Source: Acidobacteriota bacterium (GTDB taxonomy: Bacteria > Acidobacteriota > Thermoanaerobaculia > Multivoradales > JAGPDF01). From it: DNA of 64,000 nucleotides. The notes under the pieces are model-generated. The model was not told where the DNA came from and did not search any database. It was given only the letters and a program-made list of their open reading frames with translations. Below, piece after piece: positions 11,558 through 29,486 of the stretch (positions are counted from its first letter, which is position 1; each line of letters begins with the position of its first letter). A program made the translations under genes and the position numbers. The DNA is taken from assembly GCA_014584695.1 (NCBI GenBank), contig JACTMI010000031.1, positions 62,001 to 126,000 on the forward strand. The letters are read 5' to 3'.

Positions 11558-13603
11558 ATGCCCGACCGCTCGCTCGCCCGCCGCCTCGCGCTCTTGCTCG
11601 CCGCGCTAGCCGTACTCGCCGCGCCCGTCGCAGCCCAAGGGGTCGACCCCTGGACCGACGTCGAGGAGCCGGAGAGCGCGCTCGCCGACGGCGAGCGCTG
11701 GATCGTGCCGGAGCGCGCGCGCATCGTCCGCCTCGACGGCGGCGCGCTCGCGGCGCTGCTCGCGGTGACGCCGTCGGAGCTCGAAGCTCCGCGCGGGCTC
11801 GAGGGCGTCGAGCTCGTTCTGCCCGCGGTCGAGGGCGGCTCGCGCCGCTACCGGATCGTCGATTCGCCGGTGATGGCGCCCGAGCTCGCCGCCCGCTACC
11901 CGGAGCTGCGGACGTTCCGGCTGATCGACGCCGAGCAGCCGGGTTTCAGCGGCCGCGGCGACTGGACGCCGCAGGGATTCCACGCCGTCGTGCGCACGGC
12001 GTCCGGCACCGTCTACGTCGATCCGTTGCGGGTCGGCGACAGCGAGCACCACCAGGTCTACTACCGCGCCGATCTGCGCCCGCGGCCGGACCAGCGCTTC
12101 GTCTGCGAGGTCGAGGACCTCGAGAGCGAGCTCGCGGAGCTCGCGGACGCGGTCGCCTCGGCCAGCCCGCTGGTCGGCCTCGATCTGCGCACCTACCGCC
12201 TGGCCCTCGCCGCCACCGGCGAGTACACGCAGTTCCACGGCGGCACGGTGCCGGCCGGCATGGCGGCGATCGTCACCGCGGTCAACCGCGTCAACGAGGT
12301 CTACGAGCGCGACGTCGCGCTGCGCATGGTCCTGGTCGCCAACAACGACCTGGTGGTCTACACCAACGGCACCACCGACCCCTACACCAACAACAACGGC
12401 TCGGCGATGCTGAACGAGAACACCACCAACCTGAACGCCGTCATCGGCGTGGCCAACTACGACATCGGCCACGTCTTCTCGACCGGTGGCGGCGGCGTGG
12501 CGACGCTCAACGGGCCGTGCGGCGCCAACAAGGCGCGCGGCGTGACCGGCCTGCCGTCGCCGATCGGCGACCCGTTCTACATCGACTACGTCGCCCACGA
12601 AATGGGGCACCAGTGGGGCGCGGCGCACACTTTCAACGGCAACGCCAGCTCCTGCTCCGGCAACCGCAGCGCCGCCTCGGCCTACGAGCCGGGCAGCGGC
12701 TCGACCATCATGGCCTACGCCGGGATCTGCGGCGCCCAGAACCTGCAGTCGAACAGCGACGCCTACTTCCACCGCCGCAGCCTCGACCAGATGCAGACTT
12801 TCAGCCGCACGGGCACCGGCAACACCTGCGCGGCGGTGGTCGCGGTCGGCAACGAGCCGCCGGTGGTCGAGGCCGGCCCCGCCTACACCATCCCGCGGTC
12901 GACGCCGTTCGCCTTGACCGGCAGCGCCACCGACCCCGACGGCGACCCGCTGACCTACTGCTGGGAGCAGTGGGATCTGGGGCCGGCCGGGGCGCCCAAC
13001 TCGCCGTCGGGAGACGCGCCGATCTTCCGCTCGTTCGACCCGACGCCGAGCCCGACGCGGCTCTTCCCGAAGCTCTCGGATCTGCTCGGCAACACGCAGA
13101 CGATCGGCGAGATCCTGCCGACCTACGCCCGCACCCTCAATTTCCGCCTGACCGCGCGCGACAACGTCCTGCCGGCGGGAACCAACGCCTTCGATTCGAC
13201 CAGCGTCGCGGTCGACGCCGCCTCCGGACCGTTCCTGGTCACCTCGCCGAACACCGCGCTGGTGTGGAACGGCTACGGCCCGCACACCGTCACCTGGGAC
13301 GTCGCCGGCACCGACCAGCCGCCGGTCTCCTGCGCCGCGGTCGACATCCGCCTCTCGACCGACGGCGGCGTCAACTTCGACCGCCTGCTCGACACCGGCA
13401 TCCCCAACCAGGGCACCCGCTCCCTCTACGTCGGCGTCCCGAACACCGCGACCGCCCGCATCCAGGTCGCCTGCACCGGCAACATCTTCTTCGACATCTC
13501 GAACACCAACTTCTCGATCACCGCCGCCTCGAACCTGATCTTCGCCAACGACTTCGAACAGGGCAGCACGATCCTCTGGTCCCTGACCGAACCCGGCGTC
13601 TGA
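11558..13603 (+). CDS. secreted reprolysin-like zinc metallopeptidase
   Basis: Signal peptide; VAHEMGHQWGAAHTF zinc motif; C-terminal LIFANDFEQGSTILWS tag-like end. Confidence 0.85.
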   Translation: MPDRSLARRLALLLAALAVLAAPVAAQGVDPWTDVEEPESALADGERWIVPERARIVRLDGGALAALLAVTPSELEAPRGLEGVELVLPAVEGGSRRYRIVDSPVMAPELAARYPELRTFRLIDAEQPGFSGRGDWTPQGFHAVVRTASGTVYVDPLRVGDSEHHQVYYRADLRPRPDQRFVCEVEDLESELAELADAVASASPLVGLDLRTYRLALAATGEYTQFHGGTVPAGMAAIVTAVNRVNEVYERDVALRMVLVANNDLVVYTNGTTDPYTNNNGSAMLNENTTNLNAVIGVANYDIGHVFSTGGGGVATLNGPCGANKARGVTGLPSPIGDPFYIDYVAHEMGHQWGAAHTFNGNASSCSGNRSAASAYEPGSGSTIMAYAGICGAQNLQSNSDAYFHRRSLDQMQTFSRTGTGNTCAAVVAVGNEPPVVEAGPAYTIPRSTPFALTGSATDPDGDPLTYCWEQWDLGPAGAPNSPSGDAPIFRSFDPTPSPTRLFPKLSDLLGNTQTIGEILPTYARTLNFRLTARDNVLPAGTNAFDSTSVAVDAASGPFLVTSPNTALVWNGYGPHTVTWDVAGTDQPPVSCAAVDIRLSTDGGVNFDRLLDTGIPNQGTRSLYVGVPNTATARIQVACTGNIFFDISNTNFSITAASNLIFANDFEQGSTILWSLTEPGV

Positions 13604-13960
13604 CCGCGCACCTGGCGGCGCGTGCCTGGGGCCGGGTAGCTGTTGAACGCTGGGACACTCGCGTCATTCGCCCCACTTTCACGCGTGTGGACCGTGGTTC
13701 GGCGGGATCGGAGCGCAGGTTTCTGCGCTGGTTGCGAGCATTGGCGAGGACTTCTGAGCCGCTGCGCGGCGAGCCTGAGGTTCATGGTGAGCGCGGAACC
13801 CTGGTGCCGAACGCGGCCGACTCCTGCCCGGCCAAGGGCGGCGCACTCTCTCTGCCTTCCTCCCTCCTGCAGGTGCGGCGGCCGTAGTCAGGCAGAGGGG
13901 CAGCCTTTTGGCCAGCTGCTGAGGCTCCTTCCACTTCCGATCAACCGGCCCAGTCAGTAG

Positions 13961-18295: not shown

Positions 18296-19974
18296 GGTTC
18301 GCCTCCCGGCAGCAGGGTTGCCGCAAGGCGAGCGAGCTTCTCGATGACTTCGGGGTGAATCTCTGCCGGCTCCATTCGTGCCGCCAGTAGATAGAGGTCC
18401 CTCTTCGGCGTGGGCCGGCCTACCCTCTCGAGAAGCGGAACGAGGAACTCGTCACTCGCCTTGAGGCGAACGAGGGAGACGTGGTCGCTCGCAAGGTCGG
18501 TCCCGGCGGGCACCTGGCGCCAGAACTCGGCGTCGACCTCGGGCTCGTGGAGCGGGAACTCGAGGTAGCGCTTGAGTACCTCGGGTCGCAGGAGGTAGTT
18601 CTCGATCTCGTATCTCCGCCAGCGCAGAACGACCAGTCCCGATCGAGTCGTCTCGGCGTCGGGTTCGTCGCGATTGTCGCCGTCGAGCAGGCAGAGGCCG
18701 CGAACTGCGGGGAATGCGGCGCGCATGGCGAAGAAGTGCGCCTTGGCCTCTCGGAGGCTCCGCCCGCCCAGCCAGTGGACGAAGGGTCGATCGAGGAATC
18801 GACGGGCGGGGTGGTCCAGCGTCCGCGCCCACTCGCCGAGGATCCGCTCGTCGGACTCTCCCTCGACATAGAGCACCGCGCCGACGTCCTCGCCGAGAAG
18901 GAGGTCGGTCGTCGTGATTCGCTTGAGGGCTTCCCGCATGGCGTCGCGTTCGGTCTCGTTCGCGAGCGGGCGCGGTCTGCCTCCGAAGAAGCCGAGAACG
19001 CGTGTGGGCTCGGTGGCGTCGAGCACGACTTCGGAGTGCGTCGCGATGATTACCTGCCCGCCCCGTTCGCGAGCGACCTTGCGGACGAGCTCGTAGACCT
19101 GCTTCTGAAGAATGACGTGCTGATGGGCATCGGGCTCGTCGAGGAGGATGACAGTCGCGGGTCTCGCGTACAGGAAGGCGAGGAGCAGCAGCACCTGGAG
19201 GGTGCCGCTCCCGACGTTCGCGAGATCGAGCGGCCGCTCGTGGTGCGGCTCGCGGTACTCGCAAACGATGAACGGCTGGGCGGGTGTGTAGGACGGCTCG
19301 AGCAGCTCGATTCGGAAGAGGTCTCGAATGTGCGCCGCGAGGCTCGTCCAGTCGTCCGGCCGGTTACGGGCGATCTCCCACAGGAGGTTGCGCAGGATCT
19401 CTCCCGGACGACCCTGACCGACCAGGAGGTCCTGCATTCCGCGGTCTCGCCGCGGCTCGTCGCGCTCGATGCCGGAGAGCGGCGGCACGTGGACGACTTC
19501 TAGACCCGCGGCCTCGGGGGGCGGGAACGCCTGGATCGCATCCTGGGGCAGGTTCTTGGCGTCGCGAGGCCGGACGTAGACGAGCTCCGGATTGGCGTAT
19601 TGGAGCTCGAGCCCGCAGGACCATGCCGACTCGCCGCTTCTCCCCTCCAGGATGATCTCGATGAGACGTGGGGTTCCGGGCTTCTCGCCGTTCCCGGAGA
19701 CGCGGCGGTCCTCCCAGAGCAGGTTGAGCTCACGCAGCGGCACGGCGGTGAAGTCGGCTCGCGTGATCGCCACTCCGGACCGCTTGGCGGCCTTGCCCCC
19801 CTTGCGCTGGGCGATCCAGCGATCGAGTCCGAGCTTCCATGTGGCGATCGCCTGCAAGAGAGTCGACTTGCCGGCGTTGTTCGGCCCGGCCAGGATGATC
19901 GAATCCGCGAGCTCGAACGACTGGTCGGCGAACCGCTTGAAGTTCTTGATGGTCACTCGACTCAGCATGGTCAC
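18292..19974 (-). CDS. AAA (ABC/SMC-type) ATPase with C-terminal TOPRIM-like domain
   Basis: MLSRVTIKNFKRFADQSFELADSIILAGPNNAGKSTLLQAI; VILLDEPDAHQH; VLYVEGESDERIL ... LCLLDGDNRDE; YEIENYLL. Confidence 0.85.
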   Translation of the reverse strand: MTMLSRVTIKNFKRFADQSFELADSIILAGPNNAGKSTLLQAIATWKLGLDRWIAQRKGGKAAKRSGVAITRADFTAVPLRELNLLWEDRRVSGNGEKPGTPRLIEIILEGRSGESAWSCGLELQYANPELVYVRPRDAKNLPQDAIQAFPPPEAAGLEVVHVPPLSGIERDEPRRDRGMQDLLVGQGRPGEILRNLLWEIARNRPDDWTSLAAHIRDLFRIELLEPSYTPAQPFIVCEYREPHHERPLDLANVGSGTLQVLLLLAFLYARPATVILLDEPDAHQHVILQKQVYELVRKVARERGGQVIIATHSEVVLDATEPTRVLGFFGGRPRPLANETERDAMREALKRITTTDLLLGEDVGAVLYVEGESDERILGEWARTLDHPARRFLDRPFVHWLGGRSLREAKAHFFAMRAAFPAVRGLCLLDGDNRDEPDAETTRSGLVVLRWRRYEIENYLLRPEVLKRYLEFPLHEPEVDAEFWRQVPAGTDLASDHVSLVRLKASDEFLVPLLERVGRPTPKRDLYLLAARMEPAEIHPEVIEKLARLAATLLPGGEP

Positions 19975-22900
19975 CTCGGCACCGCTAGAAGCATGGCATC
20001 GAGCAGCCGTTTCTCCTCGCTGCCGGTCGGGTAGAGCGCCGACAGGGCGTTGGCGAGTCGCAGGAAGGCCGGCCCACGCTCCTGCTCGGCATTGAGGAGC
20101 GCCCGGAGAGCGTTGGTTCGTCCACCCGACTGGAGGAGCATCGCGGCGTGCACGCGGTCGAGCGTCGTCGCCTCACGGGCGGCACCGAGCTGCTCGTCGG
20201 CGACGTCCATCGCGCCCTTTCGGCCACGGGTCGCACGGCTGCGCAACTTCGGCGCCGGATCCATCTCGGGAAAGAGCATCCCCTGGAGCACGTTCGCGCC
20301 GAGTGCGGCCCCATGCTCGAGCTGTGCCGCGACAGCTTGTGCCCCGTCCTCGCCGAAGAGCTGCCGCGCCCGCTCGGCGACCGGGAGGAGCCGGACGATG
20401 CCCTTCTTCGTCTCGATCACGCGCCCATCCCATTTCGGCAGGTCGATTCCGAGCGGCTGCGCGAAGCGCCGGACGACATCGAACACGAGCGTGAAGCCTT
20501 TGGCCTTGCCGCGGCCGGCCGCCTCGTCCTCCTCCTCATCTTGGTCTGCCGATTCCGTCCCCTCGCCGGCCTCCTCCGCCCCCTCCGCGTTGCCGTTGCC
20601 GTCGGTCGACTGGAGGGTCCAGAGAAAAAGCGCCGTCAGTCGCGCATCCTCCTCGACCGCCCCGGCCGCACCGTTGCGCGCCTTGGCCTCCGTCGTCCCG
20701 AGCACCTGCGCGAGCGCCGTGCGCCCGACGACCTCCCACACCTTCTCCAGGTACTCCCCGAGCCCCACTTCCCGCCCATCCGCCATCTCGACTCGCGAGT
20801 ACCGACTGAAGATTTCTAGGGCGGGCCCGATGCACGCGAACACGAGATCCGCCCCTCGCACGCCTTCTCCCTGCAAGCGCTCCATCCAATCGCCGACTCG
20901 CCCAGGCAGTTCCCGCAGCACATCGGCCCAATCGCCGACCTGCGCATCCTCCGGGCGCGGGCGACAGATGAGATGAACGCTCGTCGCAAGGGCGGCCGAG
21001 TCTTGCGAGCGTAGGCGGCCCGGGCGCTCGGTCGCGAGCGGCCAGGAACCGGAAATCGTCCAACCGCCGCGGATCATCCCGGAGAGCAGCGCCTCCCATC
21101 CTTCGGTCGTCTTGTGCGCAAAAACGACCGAGCCGACCCCGTCTTCGCGAAGTACGCGGCGACCCTCGGCAAAGGCTCTCGCCATGGTCTCTTCGAACCA
21201 AGCGCGATCCTTCGCCCGCCCGTCGACCCTCTTCGTCTCGTCCTGCACAGCCTCGCGCCGTTTCGGAACGAGCGGATTCGTGGGATCCAACGGATCACGC
21301 AACAGCCCGTGGTCAGGCAGCGAGCGTTTCAACCAGACGAAGAAGAAGTCGGAGAGGTCCGCGTAGGGAACAGCGTCGTAGTAGGGCGGGTCGGTAAACC
21401 AGACCTGCGAAGCGTCATCGGGAAGCGGGTGTACGGTGGCGTCCGCGGGCTGCATCTGTCCTCGCGTCGAACCCGGCCAGTTCTCGACGACGCGAGCCGC
21501 CCACTCCACGGCGCCTTCGAAGTTGCCGGACGAGTCCGACCACGGCACAGCCTCGGCGAAGTCCCAGACGATAGGGAGTGCTTGCCTGCCGAAGGTGCTC
21601 CGCACGAACTCACCGGATTGTGCCCAGCTCACGAGGGAGCTGCTGTAGTCCGCCGCTCTTCCCGTGACGAGCGCAAGCGTCTCGCGCAGTTCCTCTCTTT
21701 CAGCTGCTGTCTTGCTCGCAAGGGCAGCCAACGCCACCTTCTGCCGAGCAGTGAAGAGGTCGCCCCACTGGAGCATGCCGTAGCGCTGCACGCTGAACGC
21801 ACGACCGGCTCCTGAGCCGCCACCAGACGGAGTGGGCTCGCCGGGAATCGGACAGAAGCCCTGCTTGCCATTGTGCTCCCAGTCGGCGAGGAGCTTCGCG
21901 ACGCGCTGCTGGGCGGTGTGGACGGCCGCGTAGTCGCGGGCGGTCGGGAGGTGGTACTGGCGGCCGGTGACGCCGGGCTCGAGGGTGACGACGGCGAGAA
22001 GGCGGGCTCCGCCGGTGCGGCGGCCTTTCTCGTCGAAGATCGTGTCCGCGCCGCCGCGCTGGGCGGCGAGCTGGGCGCGGACGCGCTCGGGAGGGAGCAC
22101 GATGTTGCAGCACGGGCACGCCGCCTTGGCGCGCGAGACTGTGCCGGGCGAGACCTCCTTCTCGGATTTCGGCTCGAAGATCTCGAGCTCCACCCGCGGT
22201 GGCTCCTTCGAGCCCTTCGGCGGGCGGACGACAACCGGGCGTAGAGCCTTCCGGCGGCTCGCCTTCTTCGAGAGCCAGAACGAGCGCACGAGCGGAATCT
22301 CGGCGCCGCAGTTCGGAGACTCGCAGTGGACCGTGCGCGCCCAGAGGTAGGCGATCGGGGTCGCACCGTCAGGGTCCTTCGGGTAGAGGTCGGCGAGCTC
22401 CTTCTCGGCAGCCTTCTTGATCTCCGCTCCGGCCCGCCGCAGCTCCTCGGCGAGTTTCAGGCCGCGGCGCGGGATGTCCTCCAACATCACCTTCTGAATC
22501 AGGCAGGCAACGGGGTTCAAGTCGCTCGCGAACGCCTCGCAGCCGACCCTGAGGGCCTCGAGCGGGATAGACCCCCCGCCGGCGAAGGGGTCGACCACCA
22601 GCGGCGGCTCGTCCCCATGCGCCGCCTTGACCAGCGCGCGGCTCACCTCCAGGTAGAGCGGCTTCGAGGCATTGTCCCAGTTCGCGAAGTCCGCGATGAA
22701 CCGTAGGAGCGCTGTGCGGAGGTCCTCGCCAGTCTTTCCCGGGTGGCACCCGCCCACGGCACCGAGCCGCTTGCGAGCTTCCGTCTTGAACGCCTCCGGG
22801 CAGAGCGCATCGCACGGGTCTGGCCAAAGAAGCGCCAGAAGCACCGCCCGGCTCGAGGCCAGCGGTCGGCGAGCCCACCAGAGGTGGAGCGTCGAGGGAT

Positions 22901-22997
22901 GGCCGTGCCGAATCGACTTCTCCCGCGCCGCGTGCTTGGACACCTCGGCAATCGGGAAGTCGACCTCGGCGAGGCGCTTGCAGGCCTTGGGAATCAC
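19971..22997 (-). CDS. DUF1156-type adenine-specific DNA methyltransferase with Zn-ribbon-like insert
   Basis: KRLAEVDFPIAEVSKHAAREKSIRHGHPSTLHLWWARRPLASSRAV; DPFAGGGSIPLEALRVG; FTDPPYYDAVPYADLSDFFFVWLKR; cysteine pairs in CESPNCGAE and ACPCCN. Confidence 0.9.
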   Translation of the reverse strand: MIPKACKRLAEVDFPIAEVSKHAAREKSIRHGHPSTLHLWWARRPLASSRAVLLALLWPDPCDALCPEAFKTEARKRLGAVGGCHPGKTGEDLRTALLRFIADFANWDNASKPLYLEVSRALVKAAHGDEPPLVVDPFAGGGSIPLEALRVGCEAFASDLNPVACLIQKVMLEDIPRRGLKLAEELRRAGAEIKKAAEKELADLYPKDPDGATPIAYLWARTVHCESPNCGAEIPLVRSFWLSKKASRRKALRPVVVRPPKGSKEPPRVELEIFEPKSEKEVSPGTVSRAKAACPCCNIVLPPERVRAQLAAQRGGADTIFDEKGRRTGGARLLAVVTLEPGVTGRQYHLPTARDYAAVHTAQQRVAKLLADWEHNGKQGFCPIPGEPTPSGGGSGAGRAFSVQRYGMLQWGDLFTARQKVALAALASKTAAEREELRETLALVTGRAADYSSSLVSWAQSGEFVRSTFGRQALPIVWDFAEAVPWSDSSGNFEGAVEWAARVVENWPGSTRGQMQPADATVHPLPDDASQVWFTDPPYYDAVPYADLSDFFFVWLKRSLPDHGLLRDPLDPTNPLVPKRREAVQDETKRVDGRAKDRAWFEETMARAFAEGRRVLREDGVGSVVFAHKTTEGWEALLSGMIRGGWTISGSWPLATERPGRLRSQDSAALATSVHLICRPRPEDAQVGDWADVLRELPGRVGDWMERLQGEGVRGADLVFACIGPALEIFSRYSRVEMADGREVGLGEYLEKVWEVVGRTALAQVLGTTEAKARNGAAGAVEEDARLTALFLWTLQSTDGNGNAEGAEEAGEGTESADQDEEEDEAAGRGKAKGFTLVFDVVRRFAQPLGIDLPKWDGRVIETKKGIVRLLPVAERARQLFGEDGAQAVAAQLEHGAALGANVLQGMLFPEMDPAPKLRSRATRGRKGAMDVADEQLGAAREATTLDRVHAAMLLQSGGRTNALRALLNAEQERGPAFLRLANALSALYPTGSEEKRLLDAMLLAVPR

Positions 22998-24964
22998 GTT
23001 GCGGACTCCCGACGCTTCACGACGATTGCTTCGACAATCGCGCTCAGGGTTGCCGACTCGCTACCTTCAGCGCTGCACTCCTTCAAGAGCGCGCGAACGA
23101 CGCCTGGCTTCTTCCGCCCCTCCTTCGTGGAGAGGCCCTGAGCGGCGCACGCTGCCTGCAAACGGGTCGAGTACCCTGCAAGCTCCGCTTCCAGCAGTTG
23201 CTCGAGGTTGCCCTGGATGCAGGCGCCGGAAGCTTCGACGAATGCGGGATAGTCCTGCTCGGTTCTCCCTAGGATCTTGCAGAGAAGTCGGTTCACTTCG
23301 GGCTTGGCGTCGGGTCCGTTCTGGTCGCTGTCCCAGACGACATAAGTAGGGATGCCGAGCTTCCGGAAAACCAGCGTGGGCCGATCCAGGCTCGCCTTTC
23401 CGTCGCATGGTATGACCGAGACACCCAGGGCCTCGAGATCGTGCCCCTTTGTGGCCGCGTGGGCCAGGAGAGCCGCTCGATCCGACTCGCCTTCCACGAG
23501 CACGACGAGCTCGCTGAAGAACCCTTCATTCATCCACGGGTTGAGGATGACCTCCAGTCGCGGCCGTAGGGAAGCCGCGTTCCACTTCGCTCCGGGCCTT
23601 CCTGAGAGCTCCCAAAGCTCTTCGGCCACAGAGTCCAAGGAGGCGGCCCGAACCACGGTCTGCTTCACTCCGGTATCGCTCGCGGCTCTGCTCGCTCGGC
23701 GCACTTGGTCCATCCGATCGAGGCTGACCAAGAGGGGCGAGTGCGTCGAGTAGAGGATCTGCGTACGGCCCGCCACACCCGGGATCTCGCCCTTCGCTAG
23801 CCTGAGAAGTACCGAGGAGATCTGCCGCTGGCGGTTCGGATGCTGGTAGAGCTCGGGCTCCTCGATTGCGATGAGGAGACCCGGCAGTGGCGCGTCCGCG
23901 GCGTGCGTGGCGCCATCCCCTTCGGAGCCGTCGCCGGCGTCTGAATTGACGACCTTGACCTGGCCCTTGTGCCGCTCGGCTTCGAGGTGCTGCAGGAGAG
24001 TAACGATTAGTGCGCGTTGGAGACCATGACCGGCACGGTCGACAGTGCACTCGAAGCCGTGCTCCTTCAGCCTAACGAGGGCCTTCGGTTGGGGAAAAGC
24101 CAGCTCCGCTAACTCCTGCCATTGAAGGCGTACGCCCGTGTCCGTCGCATACTGCTGAAGAGTCTGCGACAGGGCTCCGCCCAGGTTGTCCAGGTCTGGC
24201 GACTCGACGGGGCTCACGAGCTCCTTGAGTTTCCCCTGTGTCTCCTGTCGCAGCGCCTCGAGCTCAGCATGAACTGCCATGCGGCTTCGCACAACCAGAT
24301 CGAGAAGCTCCGAGATCGGCGAGGCCTTTCCCTCCTCCGCTTCCTTCGCAGCCTCGCGCACGGCGGGGACCAGCACGAAACGGACGTGACGCCGAAGCGA
24401 ACCCTGGCCCACGCCCGTGTAGCCGAGGAACTGACCGGAGTCTCGGCGCCTCGTGCACTTCGCGGGGTGGGCTTCCTCCCAAGCAGCCAGCGCTGGCTCG
24501 ACTTGATCCTGCCTCGACACGTCGGGCAGTTCGGAGTAGTCGGCCTGATCTCGAAGCGCCCTGTAGGCGTTCGTCTTCTCTCTTCCCGAAGCACCTCGGA
24601 TCGCTTCGAATGCCGCGTGTTGGAGAGTCGATCCGAAGTACTTTCCCGAGATGGCAGGGTTTGCGAGCGAGAGGACGCGTGTCACCGAGAAATGCCCGTT
24701 GTCGACGTACTTCTGGAAATCGCGCTTTGCCTCGTCGGATAGGCCCGTGAAGGTCAGCGTGATCTCGATGTCCTTCTGCCTATCGCGCGCGTGGAAGTCC
24801 TCGTCGGAGATCCTCGGACTCCCCGTGAAGAAGTAGTCGAGGGCCCTGAGGAAGGCAGACTTGCCAGAGCCGTTCGAGCCAACGAGTACGGTCAGCTCTT
24901 CGAGTCGAAGCGTCTCGTCGACGATCGAGAGGAAGTTGGTGATCTGTACGCTCTCCAGGATCAC
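22994..24964 (-). CDS. OLD-like ATPase with TOPRIM nuclease-like domain (GTG start)
   Basis: ILESVQITNFLSIVDETLRLEELTVLVGSNGSGKSAFLRAL; LLIAIEEPELYQHP; VVLVEGESDRAALLA ... CDGK ... YVVWDSDQNG. Confidence 0.85.
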   Translation of the reverse strand: MILESVQITNFLSIVDETLRLEELTVLVGSNGSGKSAFLRALDYFFTGSPRISDEDFHARDRQKDIEITLTFTGLSDEAKRDFQKYVDNGHFSVTRVLSLANPAISGKYFGSTLQHAAFEAIRGASGREKTNAYRALRDQADYSELPDVSRQDQVEPALAAWEEAHPAKCTRRRDSGQFLGYTGVGQGSLRRHVRFVLVPAVREAAKEAEEGKASPISELLDLVVRSRMAVHAELEALRQETQGKLKELVSPVESPDLDNLGGALSQTLQQYATDTGVRLQWQELAELAFPQPKALVRLKEHGFECTVDRAGHGLQRALIVTLLQHLEAERHKGQVKVVNSDAGDGSEGDGATHAADAPLPGLLIAIEEPELYQHPNRQRQISSVLLRLAKGEIPGVAGRTQILYSTHSPLLVSLDRMDQVRRASRAASDTGVKQTVVRAASLDSVAEELWELSGRPGAKWNAASLRPRLEVILNPWMNEGFFSELVVLVEGESDRAALLAHAATKGHDLEALGVSVIPCDGKASLDRPTLVFRKLGIPTYVVWDSDQNGPDAKPEVNRLLCKILGRTEQDYPAFVEASGACIQGNLEQLLEAELAGYSTRLQAACAAQGLSTKEGRKKPGVVRALLKECSAEGSESATLSAIVEAIVVKRRESAT

Positions 24965-24968
24965 AGGC

Positions 24969-25487
24969 TCAGACCCCGATCCGCGAGAAGAGGGCGGCGT
25001 CGATCGCCAAGAACTTCGAGCTCTCCTGGAAGAGGTGCCACGACTTCCTGCCTGGCGGCATGGCGTTCTCGACCACGCGACCGAGGAAACGCACCTCGCG
25101 CACGGCCGGAACGAGGTCGCTGTCACCCGAGACGAGGATCGCGACGTCGTAGGTCTGGGAGTAGGCCATCGAAACGAGATCGGTCGCGATCTTCACGTCA
25201 ACGCCCTTCTCGTACCACTGCTGGCCGGTTCGCGCCATCCGACCGGTCCAGACGTCGAGCTCGGGGACCTGCTTGAGCTGGGCGAGAAACCGCTGCTGGT
25301 GAGCGTAGAGGTCGGTTCCCATCTGCTGCGTCACGGCGCCGATGTAGAAGCCGATCCGAACGATGGGGCGCGGGCCGGCGAGCTCCCGCGCGAGCTTCAG
25401 TGGCGAGTATCGGCCCGAGCCGAAGGTCGACTTGAACGCGTGATAGGCGTTCGACCCGTCGATGAAAACAGCAACCCGGTCAGGCAT
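24969..25487 (-). CDS. NYN domain (LabA/DUF88-like) protein
   Basis: MPDRVAVFIDGSNAYHAF ... KGVDVKIATDLVSMAYSQTYDVAILVSGDSDLVPAV. Confidence 0.9.
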   Translation of the reverse strand: MPDRVAVFIDGSNAYHAFKSTFGSGRYSPLKLARELAGPRPIVRIGFYIGAVTQQMGTDLYAHQQRFLAQLKQVPELDVWTGRMARTGQQWYEKGVDVKIATDLVSMAYSQTYDVAILVSGDSDLVPAVREVRFLGRVVENAMPPGRKSWHLFQESSKFLAIDAALFSRIGV

Positions 25488-25710
25488 CCGGGCTCTCCTT
25501 GGCCGCAAAAAGGAAAACCCGACATCCGTTGCCAGATGCCGGGGGGATGATTACCCGCCGTCCGAGTTGCCCCGGACGAGCGGGGGGGTCATTCCTAGTT
25601 GACGTAGCCATGGTAGTCGCTGGTCGGGTCGGGGTCAAGGCAGCCCCAGCGCCAGTTCGCTCGGAGAGAGGCCGCGCCCGGTCACTGCGCTCCAAGTTCC
25701 TTTGAATCAT
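25480..25710 (-). CDS. possible leader ORF (76 aa) overlapping the NYN start codon
   Basis: ATGATTCAAAGG... stays open across two hairpins and ends 8 nt inside the NYN gene; no homology recognised. Confidence 0.3.
   Translation of the reverse strand: MIQRNLERSDRARPLSERTGAGAALTPTRPATTMATSTRNDPPARPGQLGRRVIIPPASGNGCRVFLFAAKESPDA
25507..25543 (-). terminator. intrinsic terminator / candidate attenuator upstream of the NYN gene
   Basis: Minus strand CCCGGCATC-TGGCAACG-GATGTCGGG (one G-U pair) followed by TTTTCCTTTTT; then AAGGAG RBS and ATG. Confidence 0.7.
25547..25592. other. strong hairpin adjacent to the terminator
   Basis: CCCGCCGTCCG-AGTTGCCC-CGGACG(A)GCGGG: 11-bp stem with one bulged A, plus outer ATGA/TCAT. 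Confidence 0.6.
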
Positions 25711-25726
25711 AGAGTTATCTGCCTGT

Positions 25727-25759
25727 TACTACCTTTATTACCATTCAGTTCCTATTACC
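25727..25759 (-). promoter_or_regulatory. A+T-rich block with repeated GGTAATA/GGTAGTA heptamers
   Basis: TACTACC (25727-25733), TATTACC (25736-25742), TATTACC (25753-25759) on the plus strand, in a strikingly AT-rich stretch for this window; minus-strand TATGAT nearby. Confidence 0.4.
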
Positions 25760-25816
25760 TGATTCGACCGATCGTCAGCACCTCTCGAAGGATCTCGGCA
25801 CCAGATCGACGGGACC

Positions 25817-28800
25817 TCACGCCCCACCCCCGTACGGCGGCGGATCCGGCTCGCGCACCTCGGTAGGATCGACGAGCGCGTTGACCGATAGGTAGTAGTG
25901 GCTGATCTTCGTGACTTCGTGCCAGGGGCGGCTCGCTGGATCGAAGATCTGCTCGAGTCGGGGGTCGGTCTTGCAGTGCGTCACCACGTAGAGCCAGAAG
26001 CAGTCCCGCCGGTCCTGCGCAACGCGGCGCTCGTTGGGAGTCAGCAGAATGGCTCCGGTTGCACCACCGATGCCCTTGACCTCGATCAGTCGCAGCTCGC
26101 CCGAGGCGAGGTCGAGGCTGGTGACGTCGTAGCCGAGGTTCTTCTCGGAGACGTCGTACACCTGCCGCCCCAGCGCGCTCTCGTGCTCGATGACGACCCG
26201 CATCGCGATCGCTTCTGTCTCGAAGTCCGGCTTGAGGTGGCGGACCTCCGGCGATTCGCTCTCCGGATGCGGGAGAACGAGCACGCTCGCGAGGCGTTCG
26301 ACCGCCTGAAGCGAGAGCGCTCGCTCTCGCTGTAGATCGACACGCCGCCGGTCGCGTCGGGCGAGAAGCTCGGCATGCCGAGCTTCTGCCATCGCAAGGC
26401 GCCCTTCCGCGCCCGCCAGCTTCATGTCGACGTCGGCCGCGGCGCGTCCGATCTCCTCGTCCGCACGTTGCAGGAGCTCGGTCAGTGAGAGCTCGACGTG
26501 GTTCGCCACGCGCTCGATCTCGCCCAGCCGATCCTTCGCGACCTCCTCGAGGAACGGTTGAAGGGCATGGTCATGGAGCCAGCCGGAAGGCTCCGGCAGA
26601 TAGGCAGCGGTCGGCAGTTCGCTCGGCCGCTCGGCAGGGATGAAGTTGCCCAGCAGCCCGGGCTCCTGGATCCGCGGCTCTCCGGTCTCGGGAACCTCGA
26701 CCGCAAAGAGCCGCTCGTGCACGACGGTGCCGAGGCCGTCGACGACGCGAGCGCGGAAGAAGTCGACGCGGGCCGGCTGATCGTGCTGGAGCGAATAGTA
26801 GGTGGCGCCCTTGGCGAGAGCGTCCAGAGCCCGAGTATTCGTGTGGCGCCGGACGGCCTCGAACAGGGGGTGCCCTGGCGTCACCCACTCCAGCTTCTCG
26901 GTCTCCGCCGTATCGCGGTCGGTGGAGCACCGGGGATAGCGGTCCGCGAGAGCCGGAAGGCGCCAGTCCGGCTCTCGCTCGTAGTGACGCAGCGTCGAGG
27001 GGGTGCGCGCGGGCTCGAAAGCGTGCAGGAGCTGCGGCACGGGCTTCAGCGCGAGCGGGACGAACTCTGCGGCTTCGGTCAGGAAGCGCGCGATCGTCTC
27101 GGGGACGACCCGCTGCTCCTGCGCCCGAGCTCTCCGCTCGATCAGCATCTCGAGATTCAGCTTCTTGCTGGCGAGGCCCTCGAGAGCGTTCTGGCAGATC
27201 GCGCGGAACTGCCGCTCGTCGACGTTGCGGAGGAGACGGTCTTCCAGGTCGGCGTCTCCGAGGCGGCCTGCGTAGTAGTCGCGCAGAACGCGCTCGACAT
27301 GGGCCGAGGGAAGGATCTCGCCCACGACGTTGAAGACCGCGTCATCGTCGAGCGCGTCGCGGATCTCCTGGAGCTTCTCCAGGAGGCGCTGCAGGACCTT
27401 GCCCTCGATCGTGTTCGTCGCGACGAAGTTGAAGATGAGGCAGTCCTTGCGCTGGCCGTAGCGGTGGATGCGCCCCATCCGCTGTTCGAGCCGGTTCGGG
27501 TTCCACGGGATGTCGTAGTTGAAGAGGATGTTGCAGACCTGAAGGTTGATGCCTTCGCCGGCCGCCTCGGTCGCAACCAGAATCTGGATCTCCCCCTCGC
27601 GGAACTGCTGCTCGGCATGGAGGCGAGTGCCGGGTTCGTCCCGAGAGCCGGACTTCATCCCTCCGTGGATGAAGCCCACCCGGAAGCCCCAGTCGCGCAG
27701 GCGCGCGACGAGGTAGTCGAGCGTGTCCTTGAACTCGGTGAAGAGCAGGAGTCGCTGGTCGGCGTGGTCGAAGAAGCCCTCCTTCTGGAGAAGCGCCCGC
27801 AGCTCCGAGAGTTTGGCCTCGGCGCCGTCCGTCTCGACGGCCTGCGCCTGGGCGGCGAGACGGCGGAGCTCCTGGACCTCCTGTCGCACCTGATCGGCGC
27901 TCCCGGCGAGCGTCACGGCTTCGAGCAGGGCCTCGAGCCGCTCGCGCTCGCTCTCTTCCATCTCCTCGAGCTCTTCCGGGTCCGGCAGGTCGGGCGGCGC
28001 CAGACGTGCGAGGTCCTGCGCCCGCTTCAGCCCATCCTCGAGCCGATGAGCCCGGTTCTCGAGCGATCGGCGCATCGCGAACGTGCTCGAAGCGAGGCGC
28101 CGCTGGTACAGCGACATGAGGAAGCCGATCGCGCGTGCTCGTGGGTCTTCTCCTGCGGCTGCGGCGCGGGCGCTTTCCCGCTTCACGAACCGTGTGACGT
28201 CTCGGTAGAGCTCGAACTCGGCGCCGTCGATCTGAAAGTCGACCGTGTGCGGGATCCGGCGGGTGAAGATCGGCTCGGCCGCCCAGCTCCCGTCGGCGCG
28301 GCGCTCGGGGAAGTAGACCATCGCCTCCTTGGTCCGGCGGAGGTAGAACGGCGCGCGGCGGCGATCCATCGCCTCGCGGATCGACTTCACGTCGGCGTAG
28401 GCGTCGGAGTCGAGCAGCTGGAGAAAAAGGCTGAAGTTGAGCGGGTCGCCCTTGTGGGGCGTCGCCGTGAGCAGGAGCATGTGGTCCGCGGTGTCACGCA
28501 GGAGCTCCCCCAGGCGATAACGCAGGCTCTTGTGCGACTCGTCGGCGGCCGACATGCGGTGCGCCTCGTCCACGATGACCAGGTCCCAGTGAACCTGGCG
28601 AAGGCTCGGCAGAACGTCGGTCCGCTTGGCGAGGTCGAGCGAGGTAATCACGCGATTGCGCTCGATCCACTGGTTCACGCCGAACTGCTCCCGAAGGTCC
28701 TGCCCCTTCATGACCAGGAACTTGGTGTCGAACTTCTCCTTGAGCTCCCGCTGCCATTGGAACGCGAGATTCGCGGGGCAGACGATCAGGATCCGCTCGG

Positions 28801-29251
28801 CCAGGCCGCGCAGTTCCAGCTCGCGGATGAGTAGGCCGGACATGATCGTCTTGCCTGCCCCGGCGTCATCGGCGAGCAGGAACCGCACGCGCGCCAGCTT
28901 CAGCAGATAGTCGTAGACGGCTTCGAGCTGGTGCGGCAGAGGATCAACACGCGAGATCGAGAGTCCGAAGTAAGGATCAAACTCGTAGGCGATGCCCAGC
29001 GCGTAGGCCTGAAAGCCGAGGCGGAGCAGGCGCCCGTCTCCGTCGAACGAGTGTTCCGGTTCGAGGACGTGGAGGCTTGCCACCTGATCGGCGGTCAGTG
29101 TGACCTTGCGGAAGCGCTCGCTCTGCGTGCCGACGAGGCCCACGATCCAGCTCGCGGCGCCATTGGGGCGCACCGTCTCGACCCGCATGGGTTCGTTGAA
29201 GAGGGGGCCGGTCAGGATCTGACCGGAGGAGAGGAGCGAATCGTTGCTCAT
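25817..29251 (-). CDS. SNF2/SF2 helicase with C-terminal DUF3883-like domain
   Basis: PLPHQLEAVYDYLLKLARVRFLLADDAGAGKTIMSGLL; DLVIVDEAHRM; EAAGEGINLQVCNILFNYDIPWNPNRLEQRMGRIHRYGQ; C-terminal NLGYDVTSLDLASGELRLIEVKGI. Confidence 0.93.
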   Translation of the reverse strand: MSNDSLLSSGQILTGPLFNEPMRVETVRPNGAASWIVGLVGTQSERFRKVTLTADQVASLHVLEPEHSFDGDGRLLRLGFQAYALGIAYEFDPYFGLSISRVDPLPHQLEAVYDYLLKLARVRFLLADDAGAGKTIMSGLLIRELELRGLAERILIVCPANLAFQWQRELKEKFDTKFLVMKGQDLREQFGVNQWIERNRVITSLDLAKRTDVLPSLRQVHWDLVIVDEAHRMSAADESHKSLRYRLGELLRDTADHMLLLTATPHKGDPLNFSLFLQLLDSDAYADVKSIREAMDRRRAPFYLRRTKEAMVYFPERRADGSWAAEPIFTRRIPHTVDFQIDGAEFELYRDVTRFVKRESARAAAAGEDPRARAIGFLMSLYQRRLASSTFAMRRSLENRAHRLEDGLKRAQDLARLAPPDLPDPEELEEMEESERERLEALLEAVTLAGSADQVRQEVQELRRLAAQAQAVETDGAEAKLSELRALLQKEGFFDHADQRLLLFTEFKDTLDYLVARLRDWGFRVGFIHGGMKSGSRDEPGTRLHAEQQFREGEIQILVATEAAGEGINLQVCNILFNYDIPWNPNRLEQRMGRIHRYGQRKDCLIFNFVATNTIEGKVLQRLLEKLQEIRDALDDDAVFNVVGEILPSAHVERVLRDYYAGRLGDADLEDRLLRNVDERQFRAICQNALEGLASKKLNLEMLIERRARAQEQRVVPETIARFLTEAAEFVPLALKPVPQLLHAFEPARTPSTLRHYEREPDWRLPALADRYPRCSTDRDTAETEKLEWVTPGHPLFEAVRRHTNTRALDALAKGATYYSLQHDQPARVDFFRARVVDGLGTVVHERLFAVEVPETGEPRIQEPGLLGNFIPAERPSELPTAAYLPEPSGWLHDHALQPFLEEVAKDRLGEIERVANHVELSLTELLQRADEEIGRAAADVDMKLAGAEGRLAMAEARHAELLARRDRRRVDLQRERALSLQAVERLASVLVLPHPESESPEVRHLKPDFETEAIAMRVVIEHESALGRQVYDVSEKNLGYDVTSLDLASGELRLIEVKGIGGATGAILLTPNERRVAQDRRDCFWLYVVTHCKTDPRLEQIFDPASRPWHEVTKISHYYLSVNALVDPTEVREPDPPPYGGGA

Positions 29252-29282
29252 CGGCTGGCTCCGCGAGCGCGGAGGTCGAGAC

Positions 29283-29486
29283 TCACGGCGCCGGGCTCCG
29301 GCGGAGGGCGTGCGCCTGCCGTTCCATCCATGCTTCGAAATCTGCACGCCGCAGGCGCCACTGGCCGCGGACCTTGAATGCGGGCAGCTCGCCCTTCTGA
29401 GCCATCGAGTAGACGGTCTTGTCGGCGAGCTTCAGCAGGACGGCAATCTCCTGGATCGTGAGGACCTCGTCAGCCAACGTAGCCAC
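29283..29486 (-). CDS. excisionase-family helix-turn-helix DNA-binding protein
   Basis: EVLTIQEIAVLLKLADKTVYSMAQKGELPAFKVRGQWRLRRADFEAWMERQ; start likely GTG at 29486 (longer ORF reaches 29576). Confidence 0.8.
   Translation of the reverse strand: MATLADEVLTIQEIAVLLKLADKTVYSMAQKGELPAFKVRGQWRLRRADFEAWMERQAHALRRSPAP

Follow-up and report, generated by a model that had tools for sequence, protein, structure and literature searches.

In the 64,000-nucleotide stretch of Acidobacteriota DNA analyzed here (the window), a gene encoding a NYN nuclease is preceded on its own strand by two strong hairpins, the second of which ends in a U-rich tail. Why should a transcription terminator lie directly before a gene, and what is terminated there? 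An initial annotation of this region proposed an attenuator, in which a translated 76-residue leader open reading frame (ORF) or a signal would decide between termination and read-through into the NYN gene.

Organization of the locus

The hairpins lie in the 329-nt region between hmaA and the NYN gene (Table 1). The NYN protein retains the acidic active-site motifs, with Asp/Glu positions that are invariant across its relatives, and its ATG (25487) is preceded by AAGGAG. A comparison with solved structures gave no direct match to this protein; the profile of its relatives matches 2qip, an uncharacterised protein. The reading frame of the adjacent OLD-like gene is open back to 25126, and translation probably starts near 24973. 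The flanking genes match all three components of the Hma defence system in PADLOC (the helicase HmaA, the methylase HmaB and the ATPase HmaC), to which the RNA, NYN and OLD-like elements described below are an addition. A 268-aa ORF between an AAA gene and hmaC (17751–16945, minus strand) has no Pfam or PADLOC match. An AT-rich stretch 3′ of hmaA (25690–25765, minus strand) contains repeated GGTAATA/GGTAGTA words and is possibly a regulator site or an insertion scar.

Table 1. Features of the locus, in window coordinates.
Feature	Coordinates	Strand	Basis or remark
HmaA helicase (host system, outside the RNA-NYN module)	25817..29347	-	PADLOC PDLC00659, E 9.7e-172; upstream neighbour
76-aa ORF, judged not to be a gene	25480..25710	-	ATG precedes the promoter; GC3 is low; codon changes mainly nonsynonymous
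Sigma-70-like promoter, TTGACC-N17-TACCAT	25610..25638	-	1 found vs 0.1 expected; kept in G419
Proposed small non-coding RNA, ~100 nt	25505..25603	-	Ends predicted from the promoter (5′) and the terminator (3′)
Stem-loop 1	25545..25595 (core stem 25584-25554, outer pairs 25595-25545)	-	Folding and compensatory change in G419
Stem-loop 2 and U-rich tail (terminator), best-conserved part of the RNA	25507..25543	-	31/32 bases identical in G419
NYN (PIN-like) nuclease, 172 aa, HEC-09 family	24969..25487	-	PF01936, E 1.1e-20; PADLOC HEC-09, E 2.3e-21
OLD-like AAA-TOPRIM protein	22994..24973	-	PF13175, PF20469; travels with the RNA and NYN
HmaB methylase (host system)	19971..22997	-	PDLC00661, E 4.1e-118, DUF1156; downstream neighbour

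Promoter, stem-loops and terminator

A promoter that had been missed in the initial annotation is located between the start of the 76-aa ORF and the hairpins, with a predicted transcription start at about 25603. It is followed by stem-loop 1 (CCCGC-T-CGTCCGGG GCAA CTCGGACG GCGGG; −30 kcal/mol, z −4.0), whose folding is equalled by no shuffled sequence, and by stem-loop 2 (CCCGGCATCTGGCAACGGATGTCGGG, 25543–25518; −20 kcal/mol, z −3.8), which also exceeds its shuffles. The second stem-loop runs into TTTTCCTTTTT (25517–25507), 19 nt before the NYN ATG. The terminator and the strong hairpin upstream of it are therefore present as first described. Promoter, two stem-loops and terminator form a conserved block of ~100 nt directly before the NYN gene. 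It is predicted to give rise to a small RNA; most transcripts would probably stop before NYN, whose expression should then be limited by read-through. The alternative pairing that had been pointed out, between GGCATC (25540–25535) in the left arm of the terminator and GATGCC over the NYN start, is possible over 6 nt.

No known RNA or riboswitch in Rfam matches the window stretch or the related loci searched. Two candidate matches were rejected: a plant microRNA in locus L154, well away from NYN, and a weak, below-threshold match to rnk-leader in L076. A second copy of the element was not found elsewhere in the source genome, and a 17-nt pattern derived from the RNA matched only unrelated viral DNA.

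The 76-aa ORF exists and ends 8 nt inside NYN, but several properties argue against its translation. A transcript from the promoter would lack its ATG (25710), which is 72 nt upstream of the −35 hexamer. Its GC3 is 0.62, compared to 0.88 for NYN and 0.86 for hmaA, and codon changes relative to the close relative G419 are mostly nonsynonymous in its frame (24 nonsynonymous, 6 synonymous), compared to 20 and 50 in NYN. Its length is unremarkable, as 18% of shuffled versions of the 329-nt region contain an ORF of 72 codons or more on the same strand. G419 has the frame open as well, joined without interruption to a fragment of hmaB, and comparison with G419 yields no conserved leader ORF. Thus, a leader-peptide attenuator is rejected on the position, composition and substitution pattern of the ORF.

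Conservation in a close relative

Among 149 genomes of the class, G419, from a different family, is the only one with a close relative of the window NYN, and none was found in viral contigs. Its NYN is 88% identical and its OLD-like gene 86%, in the same gene order. The promoter of G419 (TTGACC-17-TAGCAT) is offset by −151 from the ATG, exactly as in the window, with a diverged spacer. Both hairpins are conserved. Hairpin 1 is 74% identical and changes from CCCGC/GCGGG to CCCGT/ACGGG, with one C-G pair replaced by a compensated U-A pair. Hairpin 2 is 97% identical (31/32), compared to 64% for NYN third codon positions and 44% for the sequence upstream of the promoter. Constraint on the RNA thus exceeds that on silent sites, and the promoter marks the start of the conserved sequence. 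The alternative pairing with the NYN start is also possible in G419, with one G-U pair. There, neither stem-loop is a clear repeat of the other.

The U-tract is partly lost in G419, where termination may be weak. As the hairpin sequence is nevertheless kept, the sequence of the RNA, and not only termination, appears to be under selection. In this genome, the promoter, RNA, NYN and OLD-like gene follow a 46-codon copy of hmaB, and a second hmaB start comes after the unit. This placement between hmaB copies indicates that the four elements moved together and have no dependence on hmaA. The duplication of the first 46 hmaB codons on either side of the unit (L174, 3533–3670 and 1–864) is a trace of insertion.

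Structured RNAs beside NYN genes elsewhere

We collected 126 NYN genes (109 at <90% identity) from genomes, plasmids, prophages and viral contigs; the relatives come mostly from draft or metagenome assemblies. A same-strand terminator-like hairpin precedes 63 of the 109 NYN genes, compared to 8 of 100 control genes (P 4e-15), and a promoter together with a terminator precedes 27 and 2, respectively. These counts are lower bounds, since many clear examples escape the perfect-stem rule, among them L009 and L142, which were recovered by covariance models. NYN genes of the HEC-09/PF01936 type with adjoining hairpin RNA genes occur across phyla, on plasmids and in prophages or phages.

The orientation of the RNA gene varies. 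It is divergent from NYN in L144, L145, L146 and L178, and convergent, behind NYN on the opposite strand, in L166, L172 and L184; opposite-strand units were also recognized by eye in L008, L133–L135 and L169. As the partnership is constant while the orientation changes, action of the RNA in trans or on the protein is to be expected. On the E. coli plasmid pRHB40-C03_3 (L164, 577–693), tandem hairpin repeats of a 33-nt unit (2.6 copies and a degenerate one) and a terminator lie directly before NYN, and doubled RNA units are found in L196, where the two are adjacent, and in L011. NYN genes similar to that of pRHB40-C03_3 are present on many small plasmids of E. coli and Klebsiella.

Two covariance models were built from these RNAs. 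R1 consists of two stem-loops with a consensus of about ACCCC-hp-GGG-CGCGRGG-hp-CCUYUGCUUUUU, and R2 is a single long hairpin that ends in GGGGUUAU. Loops and flanks are strongly conserved in sequence, as in the R2 consensus GACACGCCG.AAGGCCUC. In expanded alignments that were fitted to the model, both partners differ in 17 of 18 pairs of R1 and 7 of 13 pairs of R2, and paired cells and covariation scores are higher than in any of 500 shuffles or any slid version; the initial MAFFT alignments give the same picture. Promoter-like hexamers (at least 9 of 12 positions) precede 58% of R1 and 33% of R2 RNAs, compared to 9% and 5% in shuffles. Neither family matches Rfam.

R2 has no match in the window. 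R1 matches the second hairpin in G419 with E 7.5e-4 and stem-loop 2 of the window weakly, at 11.4 bits (rank 2, E 0.12 over the whole window; E 4.5e-4 in a pre-specified 231 nt). The window RNA belongs to a subfamily of two members, itself and that of G419, and is at most a candidate member of the modelled families. What is established as common to the window and the wider NYN loci is the gene partner, the layout and the conservation.

RNA copies without an intact nuclease

Strong matches to the models (at least 30 bits for R1, at least 38 for R2) were found at 36 places in 396 genomes. Of the 32 examined, 10 lie beside an intact NYN gene, 8 beside a truncated or frameshifted one, and 14 have no recognisable NYN gene. 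The converse, an intact NYN of the R1 and R2 groups lacking a hairpin unit, is very rare, as judged partly by eye. Retention of the RNA when the nuclease is lost or broken is expected of an antitoxin; other reasons are possible, since several lone RNAs adjoin integrase or defence-type genes, and the RNA may have other roles too.

R1- or R2-type RNAs precede other genes, and NYN is gone or only a few of its codons remain, in L318 (1501–1551), L326 (1501–1550), L327 (1501–1551) and L288 (1501–1561). The genes behind the RNA in these loci encode DUF3644 with a REase-like domain, a ResIII helicase, DUF1016 and AlbA_2/HATPase proteins. R2 RNAs without NYN also occur in L313, L315, L316 and L322, in the last three ~115 nt behind a tyrosine integrase gene.

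Proposed function and relation to known systems

On balance, we favor the interpretation that the feature is a gene for a small non-coding RNA partnered with the NYN nuclease, most likely an RNA antitoxin, and that the RNA, NYN and OLD-like genes are carried as cargo in the Hma operon. The elements, with their order, conservation and association, are evident from sequence; their function is inferred. Transcription from the promoter to the terminator would give a two-stem-loop RNA of ~100 nt, and occasional read-through would produce NYN mRNA, leaving the RNA in excess over the protein. The RNA would most likely bind the NYN ribonuclease and neutralize its putative toxicity by keeping it inactive. 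If synthesis or stability of the RNA were lost, for example upon phage infection, the nuclease would be freed. More broadly, it is an even question whether these loci represent a widespread, undescribed class of RNA-protein toxin-antitoxin systems, in which HEC-09 NYN ribonucleases are paired with small structured RNAs absent from Rfam, on phages, on small plasmids and as defence-island cargo, including inside Hma, with the RNA often outlasting the nuclease gene.

The constant association in any orientation and the conserved loops and flanks of the RNAs would fit any RNA-protein partnership, including one in which the RNA is a working cofactor of NYN (an activator, guide or sensor in a ribonucleoprotein effector) and not its inhibitor. 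The RNAs retained beside truncated or missing NYN genes, and the tandem repeats before the terminator, suit an antitoxin better, and a cofactor role appears unlikely.

Control in cis of NYN and the genes downstream, by an attenuator or structured 5′ leader that needs no ORF, is the original proposal stripped of its leader peptide. Here and in most relatives, the likely promoter is separated from NYN by a terminator, and the 6-nt pairing with the NYN start is available in both the window and G419. However, action solely in cis is difficult to reconcile with the divergent and convergent copies of the RNA, with copies that have no NYN, with the lack of a conserved leader ORF, and with a hairpin sequence that is kept in G419 while its U-tract decays. 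We regard this explanation as rather improbable.

An RNA antitoxin for NYN would have close parallels. One is the AbiF/RCd22 system of Clostridioides difficile, found on phages and mobile elements, which is built alike: a promoter, a ~100–130-nt RNA containing two stem-loop motifs, an intrinsic terminator, and a ribonuclease gene expressed via read-through (PMC12373285). The nucleases are unrelated: AbiF is a HEPN (Abi_2) protein, whereas the protein here is NYN (PIN-like) with no HEPN match, and the AbiF RNA (RF03085) is not the RNA found here. Type III toxin-antitoxin systems (ToxIN, TenpIN, CptIN) likewise have an RNA gene, a terminator and a nuclease gene in this order, as do the window and most of its relatives. 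The tandem repeats of pRHB40-C03_3 and the doubled unit of L196 resemble their RNAs, and the window has two non-identical stem-loops. Type III toxins belong to the ToxN/AbiQ family, in contrast to the HEC-09 NYN (PF01936) protein here; additionally, most NYN loci have one two-hairpin unit instead of 2–5 repeats, the orientation of their RNA varies, and neutralization by the NYN-linked RNA is putative.

NYN proteins of the HEC-09 family are common on mobile elements, and their entry in PADLOC is only that of a hypothetical defence candidate. This model, which the window NYN and its relatives match, describes a protein alone, with no RNA partner, and in the open-access literature we found no paper that links NYN proteins to a partner RNA or to type III toxin-antitoxin systems. 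A partner RNA would give these proteins a mechanism, and its signature could be used to find more such NYN systems. If the antitoxin interpretation is correct, another nuclease fold would join the small group of RNA-neutralised ribonucleases (ToxN-like, AbiF/HEPN). AbiF/HEPN has been linked to the origin of Cas13.

The Hma operon as a cargo slot

HmaA relatives that are 68–92% identical occur in many phyla. In 76 of them without NYN, the next ORF begins at a median of 49.5 nt, and a terminator-like hairpin is found within 350 nt in 9. It is thus very improbable that the feature is the ordinary terminator of the helicase gene, a fallback allowed by the initial annotation: it does sit 3′ of hmaA, and hairpin 2 with its U-tract makes a good intrinsic terminator, but it starts ~220 nt past the hmaA stop with a promoter between, most HmaA relatives have no such terminator, and in G419 the unit follows the truncated hmaB copy and not hmaA. 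The best reading of this arrangement is that the RNA-NYN-OLD unit is extra cargo, which an Hma-type defence operon acquired by insertion between its hmaA and hmaB genes.

The hmaA-hmaB junction (25817–22997 in the window; loci L053–L132) is a cargo slot that ranges from ~10 nt (L056) to ~5 kb. Its contents are varied (AAA ATPases, AlbA-type, DUF3644, DUF1016-like, NYN and others) beside very similar helicases. The three HmaA relatives with NYN in the slot (L063, L076 and L112) have a promoter and a hairpin RNA before NYN. In L112, a Bipolaricaulota Hma locus, an R2 RNA (13561–13611) and a different promoter/two-hairpin unit (~13740–13840) both precede the NYN gene.
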